Under the pieces are notes generated by a model. That model was not told the origin of the DNA and searched no databases. It was given only the letters and a program-made list of their open reading frames with translations. A DNA stretch of 42,654 bases from a bacterium (lineage in GTDB: Bacteria > Patescibacteriota > Doudnabacteria > UBA920 > 2-01-FULL-46-14): the NCBI GenBank assembly GCA_030700065.1, contig JAUYKH010000015.1, positions 1 through 42,654 on the forward strand, read 5' to 3'. Shown here one piece after another: positions 37,503-38,928 of this stretch. Every line of letters starts with the position of its first letter. Positions within the stretch are counted from its first letter, which is position 1. A program made the translations under genes and the position numbers.

Positions 37503-38243
37503 CTATTGTTCTGCCAGCCTCCTTTCAAGATTTTCCAGTTCCTGCATGAATCTCTGCCGAACTTCGGCGGCAAATGGATTGCCCAACTCGATTGTTTTGA
37601 ACAATTCCCACGAATCCGCGCCCAGCAACTCGGCAACTTTACAGAGATGACCAAAGGCAGTTGTGGCAAGTTCGGAATTACTCACCTCGCATCCGGTCAA
37701 ACCCCGGGCGATGAAATGCGTGAGTGCCTGCACATTAGCCATTTGCCGATCGTGTTGCTCGGCGGTCATTTCAAACAAACGCAGCCCCTGGTCCCGAAGA
37801 AACTGCAACATGAATTCCGACTTGGGAGACGAAGCGGCAATTGGGCAGATGACCAGCCGATGGCCGTGCCAGCCGTCCTTAGCGCTTTGTGGACCGAACA
37901 ACGGATGTGTGCCCAAGAGCTCTATCTGCGGTAAATATTTCCGCATCAGACGAAGAGGTTCTTGTTTGACCGAGCACACATCCATCAACAGCGCGTTGGG
38001 ATTAACACACAAGGTTAACCGGCCAAGCAGTAATTCCATTGATTGTAACGGCACGGCCAACACGACCAGTTCCCTATTGGCCACTTCCTCGAGCGTAGAC
38101 CACCTCACGCTCATTTCAGCCGCTTCATCGTTAAAATTTCGGCAGTCCCAGACGGAGACATCAAAGGTCGTGGCCAGTTTTCGAGCGAAAAACTTGCCAA
38201 AGTTGCCAAAACCAACTATACCCACTCTTTCAATTCTTTTCAT
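37503..38243 (-). CDS. tyrA: prephenate/arogenate dehydrogenase family protein
   Basis: RVGIVGFGNFGKFFARKL; GTHPLFGPQSAKDGWHGHRLVICP; QALTHFIARGL. Confidence 0.9.
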   Translation of the reverse strand: MKRIERVGIVGFGNFGKFFARKLATTFDVSVWDCRNFNDEAAEMSVRWSTLEEVANRELVVLAVPLQSMELLLGRLTLCVNPNALLMDVCSVKQEPLRLMRKYLPQIELLGTHPLFGPQSAKDGWHGHRLVICPIAASSPKSEFMLQFLRDQGLRLFEMTAEQHDRQMANVQALTHFIARGLTGCEVSNSELATTAFGHLCKVAELLGADSWELFKTIELGNPFAAEVRQRFMQELENLERRLAEQ

Positions 38244-38434
38244 ACACTCCTTTCATCGTCCCCATCGGAACGTTCTTTAAACCCGAACTTCAGTTTGAGA
38301 GCCAGTACAGTTACCCTGCTGTCTAAACCCTCGGGCAGACTATCCCTGTCGACATGCAGTATCACCCACAACTTTGAAAACCCACCTCCTAGAGCGGCTG
38401 CAACCGAACCAAAGAGTTCATCAAGTTCACTCAT
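38240..38434 (-). CDS. 64-aa protein upstream of and translationally coupled to tyrA
   Basis: Strong SD GGAGG 5 nt upstream; ATGA overlap with tyrA; no family recognised. Confidence 0.6.
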   Translation of the reverse strand: MSELDELFGSVAAALGGGFSKLWVILHVDRDSLPEGLDSRVTVLALKLKFGFKERSDGDDERSV

Positions 38435-38524
38435 GTTTCCTCCTCATCGGAAGCATATGGCCTCCGGGCTTCTCTCTGCGCACCAAAGGCTGGTGTAGCC
38501 TCTCCACGAAATTGTGAAAGAACT

Positions 38525-38550
38525 AAAAACTGGCCCCGCAAGAGGCCAGT
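38525..38550 (-). terminator. attenuator terminator 2 (upstream of the tyrA operon)
   Basis: Reverse strand ACTGGCC TCTTGCGG GGCCAGT TTTTA. Confidence 0.85.
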
Positions 38551-38574
38551 TGGAGGAGTCGAAATTTTAAAAAA

Positions 38575-38655
38575 TTACTTCGGCACCTTGAAACAAGCCT
38601 CTTGCAAAGAGCCGTAGTAATAAACATTATTTTTTGGGAACATTACGGTAGTCAT
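38575..38655 (-). CDS. Tyr leader peptide 2 (26 aa)
   Basis: MTTVMFPKNNVYYYGSLQEACFKVPK, YYY encoded by TAT TAC TAC. Confidence 0.75.
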   Translation of the reverse strand: MTTVMFPKNNVYYYGSLQEACFKVPK

Positions 38656-38665
38656 AAATTTAAAC

Positions 38666-38690
38666 AAAAAACCGCCCCTGCAGAAGGCGG
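38666..38690 (-). terminator. attenuator terminator 1
   Basis: Reverse strand CCGCC TTCTGCAGG GGCGG TTTTTT. Confidence 0.8.
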
Positions 38691-38719
38691 ATATCATCAA
38701 GATTTAGTAAAAATGAAAA

Positions 38720-38788
38720 TTACCGCAACTTCTGCACAATTGAAGTCGGGTAGTAATAGTTGTTCATTTGTTGCTTAATTAAATTCAT
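38720..38788 (-). CDS. Tyr leader peptide 1 (22 aa)
   Basis: MNLIKQQMNNYYYPTSIVQKLR, YYY encoded by TAT TAC TAC. Confidence 0.75.
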   Translation of the reverse strand: MNLIKQQMNNYYYPTSIVQKLR

Positions 38789-38799
38789 AACTTAAGGCA

Positions 38800-38827
38800 A
38801 GTATAGCAAAAATGGGGATTATATCAA
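38800..38827 (-). promoter_or_regulatory. promoter of the tyrA attenuator/operon
   Basis: Reverse strand TTGATA-N16-TATACT upstream of leader peptide 1. Confidence 0.65.
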
Positions 38828-38928
38828 TAGCGATTTTGGGAGTCAGAGAATTAGCCATTTGCTCGTGGGGTGGGTGGGACGAGCGTAGCGAGGAGGTAGT
38901 GCCTCATCAAAATTCAAAAAGTTTCAAC

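Follow-up and report, generated by a model that had tools for sequence, protein, structure and literature searches.

Two short open reading frames, each with a run of tyrosine codons and each followed by a terminator, lie ahead of a gene for prephenate dehydrogenase (tyrA) in the stretch of 42,654 nucleotides analysed here (the window, from genome G000). This raises the question of whether the two frames form a regulatory device and what that device would sense. We consider it very probable that the region works by ribosome-mediated attenuation sensing Tyr-tRNA, with two units in series. Two complete attenuators would respond to the charging of Tyr-tRNA and control the transcript of a 64-aa ORF and tyrA. 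When Tyr-tRNA is plentiful, the ribosome would pass the Tyr codons and cover segment 2 of the leader RNA, and the 3:4 terminator would form. When Tyr-tRNA is scarce, the ribosome would stall at the Tyr codons, segment 2 would pair with segment 3, and RNA polymerase would read through. Since both terminators must be passed, the amount of full-length transcript would scale roughly with the two read-through probabilities multiplied together, which may give a low leak and a steep response.

The leader region upstream of tyrA

The elements lie on the minus strand in the order promoter, leader 1, terminator 1, leader 2, terminator 2, 64-aa ORF and tyrA, and each was found where an initial annotation of the window had placed it. 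The -10 box of the promoter (TTGATA-16-TATACT, 38800..38827) ends 11 nt from the ATG of leader 1, and the corresponding spacing was 8 to 12 nt in six Tyr loci (G000, G044, G003, G018, G296 and G125). With this spacing the mRNA should start near the ATG, and its 5' end is predicted to lie within a few nucleotides of it, making leader 1 near-leaderless. Such a start would put the ribosome close behind RNA polymerase. A second promoter-like site (CTGACT-17-TATAAT) overlaps the first in the window and ends 29 nt from the leader-1 ATG.

Leader peptide 1, MNLIKQQMNNYYYPTSIVQKLR (38720..38788), has homologues in L013, L014 and L067, and its Tyr codons TAT TAC TAC are located at 38758-38750. Translation confirmed that both leader peptides carry this run of three consecutive Tyr codons, as had been noted initially. 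The 1:2 helix of unit 1 (38721..38752) begins in the third Tyr codon and pairs 38752-38742 with 38732-38721, forming 11 pairs with an energy of -12.2 kcal/mol. The competing 2:3 antiterminator (38680..38735) joins GCAGAAG-TT-GCGG (38735-38723) to CCGC-CTTCTGC (38690-38680), and this previously proposed complementarity is exact. Terminator 1 (3:4) with its U-tract (38666..38690, hairpin 38690-38672) was also detected by an independent terminator scan. Taken alone it is modest, at about -10 kcal/mol.

Leader peptide 2, MTTVMFPKNNVYYYGSLQEACFKVPK (38575..38655), has its Tyr codons TAT TAC TAC at 38622-38614 and homologues in L013, L014 and L057. A Shine-Dalgarno-like stretch precedes leader 2 in G003 and perhaps in G044, and none is visible in G000 and G296. 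The complementarity of GCAAGAGGC to GCCTCTTGC, on which the 2:3 pairing of this unit had been based, also proved exact. The long antiterminator of unit 2 (2:3, 38538..38605) pairs 38605-38578 with 38564-38538 and comprises 21 pairs in the window, with recurring internal mismatches. Terminator 2 (3:4) with its U-tract (38523..38551, hairpin 38551-38528), recovered both by the independent terminator scan and by folding, is strong at -16.8 kcal/mol. The initial annotation had assigned a 1:2 helix to each unit. The assignment held for unit 1, but the helix of unit 2 is weak and variable, with -5.3 kcal/mol in the window, -2.5 kcal/mol in G044 and a range of -2.5 to -11.1 kcal/mol where a Tyr-rich leader exists.

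The 64-aa ORF (38240..38434) has a good Shine-Dalgarno sequence and overlaps tyrA by 4 nt. Family searches returned no match for it, and it was not seen in the other tyrA operons that we read. The product of tyrA (37503..38243) matched PF02153 in Pfam (1e-15) and the prephenate-dehydrogenase models of NCBIfam, the latter with scores under the curated cut-offs. The structure predicted for it (pLDDT 76) lay nearest to prephenate dehydrogenase from soybean (TM 0.84) and to further TyrA structures. A domain search matched no ACT domain in this protein. Both sequence and fold identify TyrA, and the gene under the proposed control thus belongs to the metabolism of the amino acid that would be sensed.

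Competing helices and the position of the switch

For comparison with the leader:terminator duplex, the sequence from the last Tyr codon to the terminator was dinucleotide-shuffled 300 times. None of the shuffles reached the native duplex in either window unit (0/300 each). The duplex between the leader and the terminator arm had an energy of -17.6 kcal/mol in unit 1 and -19.3 kcal/mol in unit 2, against shuffled means of -5.9 and -9.0 kcal/mol. The modelled Tyr-dependent switch described below was matched by 1/300 shuffles for unit 1 and 0/300 for unit 2. A loose scan for a Tyr pair, a terminator and a duplex gave chance matches in about 1.06 Mb (both strands, with many overlapping loci), two of them inside the window. 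For this reason, the weight of the argument rests on the YYY run, the promoter and position, the tandem arrangement and the recurrence. The same scan is what speaks for chance ORFs beside tandem terminators, since some Tyr-pair ORFs do precede hairpins by chance. However, recurrence in several genera, covariation and the shuffle tests contradict this explanation, and we give it practically no credence.

The position of the switch was modelled by partition-function folding with a sliding ribosome footprint, assumed to reach from -15 to +12 around the A-site codon. In unit 1, the probability of the terminator was 0.00 whichever Tyr codon occupied the A site and 0.81 once the ribosome stood two codons beyond the last one. 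The corresponding values in unit 2 were 0.00 for the first and second Tyr codons, 0.66 for the third and 0.97 for the codon that follows. The modelled change from antiterminator to terminator therefore coincides with the Tyr codons or follows them immediately, in the two window units and in most relatives. This folding check had been suggested with the initial annotation, and its outcome for both window units supports the trp/phe-type logic proposed there, by which a ribosome stalled at Tyr would free segment 2 for segment 3. In footprint folding of the relatives, G018 and unit 2 of G003 switched like the window units, and unit 1 of G044 switched inside the Tyr run. The switch was less clean in unit 2 of G044 and unit 1 of G003, with terminator probabilities of 0.89 and 0.48, respectively, already at the first Tyr codon; G296 and unit 1 of G003 were intermediate.

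A ribosome at the stop codon had been thought to mask segment 2 in both units. This was borne out for unit 1 but not for unit 2, in which segment 2 ends 19 nt upstream of the leader-2 stop codon and equilibrium folding favours the antiterminator with the ribosome there. A ribosome at this stop codon would leave segment 2 free, so masking and termination would have to be decided while the ribosome passes. The naked unit-2 RNA folds as the antiterminator, which implies that the device would rely on translation keeping pace with RNA polymerase.

Recurrence and covariation in relatives

The tandem arrangement was found in three further genera, represented by G003, G044 and G296, the last of which belongs to a distant family. 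Single or partial copies occurred in G018 (unit 1 only) and G001 (unit-2 RNA only). A tyrA profile searched against 50 genomes of the order gave strong matches in G000, G001, G003 and G044, which are themselves the rows of the profile, and weaker ones in G043 and G015. Both units lie upstream of a racemase-tyrA operon in G003 and G044, where the leaders are MNFKLVHQANSYTYRTSILQKLR and MFTLSIQLNISYYPGLSQEVSFQAPN (G003) and MKISSSQINSYYYATSLQRLR and MTLNFTQLNPYYYNPFHKVSFKAPKSYWL (G044). Covariance models of the units matched G018 (E 1.5e-6) and, among 384 genomes of the phylum, G296 (E 1.5e-9); these values came from models built without sequence from the genome concerned. In G296, the tandem leaders MHNFQLQIVSYYRA and MTNQFIFATSYYAYYYTPPRG (SYYRA; SYYAYYYTPPRG) precede a 352-aa ORF that matched no family (L084:2535-3593), after which comes a racemase. 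In G018, the leader MNISFAQINAYNYRTS is followed by a racemase fragment.

The partial copies had features of their own. At the G018 locus (L086:2566-3014), the Tyr leader and terminator precede only the C-terminal part of the racemase, a 110-aa ORF, and no convincing copy of tyrA was found in this genome; the locus is a decayed operon with an intact-looking leader. In G001, the unit-2 antiterminator and terminator are kept upstream of tyrA (L003:2262-2400, minus strand), the Tyr-containing frame MRNE*YSPLYLIVRG is broken by a stop codon, and no Tyr-run leader was seen. Most of the racemase homologues found in the phylum had no Tyr leader, so the leader is not a general feature of racemase genes. 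The Planctomycete and proteobacterial tyrA loci L018-L026 had no Tyr-run leader. Weak R1/R2 matches at L059-L061, L068, L070-L072, L074, L096 and L098 turned out, on reading or scanning, to be coding, ribosomal or ordinary terminators.

The single copies bear on whether both window units work. Only one might be a working Tyr attenuator, the other being a degraded copy or mainly a constitutive terminator that insulates tyrA from tRNA-Pro and upstream transcription. The occurrence of unit 1 alone in G018 and of unit 2 alone in G001 fits this explanation, as do the weakness of terminator 1 in the window and the lack of a Shine-Dalgarno sequence before leader 2 in the window and G296. However, the Tyr codons and the competing helices are kept in both units of G000, G003, G044 and G296, and we regard a single working unit as unlikely. 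Two working units in series remain our preferred interpretation.

Because MAFFT misaligned the unit-1 terminators, the helices of unit 1 were assessed sequence by sequence. The 1:2, 2:3 and 3:4 helices could each be drawn in G000, G044, G003, G018 and G296 despite the sequence differences, and the energy of the 1:2 helix ranged from -7.6 to -12.2 kcal/mol across the five genomes. The unit-1 leaders are clearly homologous, with a mean column identity of 77%. In the unit-2 antiterminator, 6 of the 22 alignment pairs showed compensatory change on both sides among five genomes; for this count, one base was dropped from the 3' strand in each of G001 and G296, which kept the alignment ungapped. The fraction of paired cells was 91.8% in register and 30-53% when the partner was slid, and sliding left only 0-2 pairs changed on both sides. 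The covariation score, which rests on five genomes, was 0.318 against 0.02-0.11 for slid partners. The 5' strand of the unit-2 antiterminator falls mostly downstream of the leader stop codon in G296 yet remains conserved, which argues that the RNA structure, not the peptide, was selected there. The initial annotation had pointed to Tyr-rich ORFs and compensatory changes in orthologous leaders as the decisive observations. Both were found, with tandem units kept in G003, G044 and G296 and helices kept through compensatory changes, and the idea survived.

The Tyr motifs drift among the leaders (YYY, YTY, YNY, YY and YYAYYY), while the Tyr codons and helices stay. Judged from the sequences, the leaders share their Tyr codons, spacing and helices but not the other residues of the peptide. 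This bears on a second explanation, in which the nascent chain itself stalls the ribosome in a TnaC- or Erm-like manner, the Tyr residues being part of an arrest motif and uncharged tRNA playing no role. Similar residues do follow Tyr in unit 1 of G000, G003 and G044 (TS..Q.LR), and FK(V/A)PK or FQAPN occurs near the end of leader 2 in the same three genomes. However, the shared residues are encoded where the RNA segments pair, most of the equivalent RNA in unit 2 of G296 is noncoding, and the G018 frame ends before reaching it. Since the peptides also differ outside Tyr, we consider nascent-chain stalling improbable. Still less probable is a tRNA- or ligand-binding RNA, such as a T-box or riboswitch, with only incidental short ORFs. 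Such an RNA would also be compatible with the terminator/antiterminator pairs and with the length, conservation and recurring internal mismatches of the unit-2 antiterminator. Nonetheless, no Rfam family, T-box included, reached threshold upstream of tyrA, and a cmscan of the window with Rfam matched only two tRNAs. Wherever a leader ORF can be recognised, it retains the Tyr codons while its remaining sequence changes, and the interval from promoter to terminator leaves little space for a large aptamer. Attenuation through Tyr-tRNA thus remains the reading that we favour.

Other leader peptides were seen in the phylum. Ile-rich leaders follow a promoter in G348 (MDIILQIRQAIIGIITIISPTKRGSFLQQL, L058:1451-1543, then a 60-aa ORF) and in G012 (MNNIFFQIISIIITIIRHIRGRLLIT, L073:1503-1583, then a 46-aa ORF), each with a terminator whose 5' arm complements the leader. 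These are likely Ile attenuators; the sliding-ribosome model showed a switch for the G348 leader but not for that of G012. A Leu-rich leader in G030 (MNTFVSNNTLSLSLLLPRRCY, L069:1503-1568), with a terminator and a complementary segment, precedes a 125-aa ORF that matched no Pfam family. In G125, the leader MNTKSSLVYWYYKTN (L118, minus strand, 1325-1372), again with a terminator and a complementary segment, stands directly before an Asp/Glu racemase gene and is apparently an independent Tyr (or Tyr/Trp) attenuator.

Metabolic context and comparison with known systems

Neither chorismate synthase nor the CM_2 chorismate mutase was detected in G000, G001, G003, G044, G018 or G296, the controls being positive. 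A search for class I/II aminotransferases had matches in the other five genomes and none in G000 (93.5% complete). With the two chorismate enzymes not found, TyrA appears to be an orphan enzyme, probably engaged in salvage, and the simplest account of Tyr control over an operon in genomes lacking a chorismate pathway would be an imported precursor. These results fall short of establishing the initial proposal that the end product of the encoded enzyme is what the device senses.

Identity of the window TyrA was 43-45% with Planctomycete TyrA but fell to 26-28% with the TyrA of G003 and G044, whose enzymes form a long branch of their own. The leaders, by contrast, are plainly homologous. Two histories would account for this: the enzyme was replaced under a regulator that persisted, or the TyrA of G003 and G044 evolved very rapidly. 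Taken together, these observations allow a broader reading, which we put forward tentatively. An ultra-reduced lineage unable to make chorismate may have kept a double Tyr-starvation attenuator as an independent cassette, above a Planctomycete-like TyrA here, a racemase and a very divergent TyrA in G003 and G044, and a gene of unknown function and a racemase in G296. This cassette would have outlived enzyme replacement and would control salvage of an imported aromatic precursor; the related Ile- and Leu-type leaders would suggest that leader-peptide attenuation is general but overlooked in the phylum.

In the literature that we consulted, leader-peptide attenuation is known mainly from Proteobacteria and Actinobacteria; Firmicutes add His leaders, and tyrosine control operates via TyrR or T-boxes. 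A tandem Tyr attenuator at a genome size of ~1 Mb would show that genome reduction need not abolish tight transcription-translation coupling or regulation specific to one amino acid, and the attenuator would offer a handle on what uncultured bacteria sense and salvage.

The E. coli leaders trpL, pheL (pheA) and pheM (pheST) combine a leader ORF containing regulatory codons with 1:2, 2:3 and 3:4 helices and an intrinsic terminator. The tyrA units share with them the leader ORF, the alternative helices and the terminator before the controlled gene. Unlike them, the tyrA units would use Tyr, occur two in series and have a leader 1 predicted to be near-leaderless, and in unit 2 the antiterminator is long and the leader stop codon lies beyond segment 2. 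Attenuation by Trp and Phe has been described, and the aroR leader upstream of aroF in C. glutamicum contains Phe-Tyr-Phe (Neshat 2014, reviewed in PMC11802643). That leader responds to Phe, and Tyr availability is without effect (PMC11802643). It likewise has a Tyr codon in a leader before an aromatic gene, whereas Tyr is the only repeated codon in the tyrA leaders. Tyr genes are also under T-box control (PMC1262725). The Tyr T-boxes of Firmicutes and the enterobacterial TyrR similarly regulate Tyr genes by tyrosine or its tRNA, but T-boxes act by direct binding of the tRNA and TyrR acts as a DNA-binding protein, and neither uses a translated leader as the tyrA units would.

The consulted portion of a study of Firmicutes describes a His leader upstream of hisS/hisZ and states that leader-peptide systems had not previously been described outside Proteobacteria and Actinobacteria (Naville and Gautheret 2010, PMC2965389). 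Like that leader, the tyrA units lie outside these two groups and are argued from comparative sequence; the His leader differs in amino acid, gene and phylum, and the same portion describes no tandem units. In the mostly open-access literature that we searched, we found neither leader-peptide attenuation in Patescibacteria/CPR nor tandem attenuators with tyrosine codons. Such switches seem not to have been described before for tyrosine or for this kind of bacterium, whose genome size, together with the many families of small genomes in its phylum, places it probably in Patescibacteria. Overall, the mechanism is classical, and what seems new is the predicted Tyr specificity, the tandem arrangement, the predicted near-leaderless start, the host group and the survival of the leader in front of TyrA proteins that differ widely in sequence.
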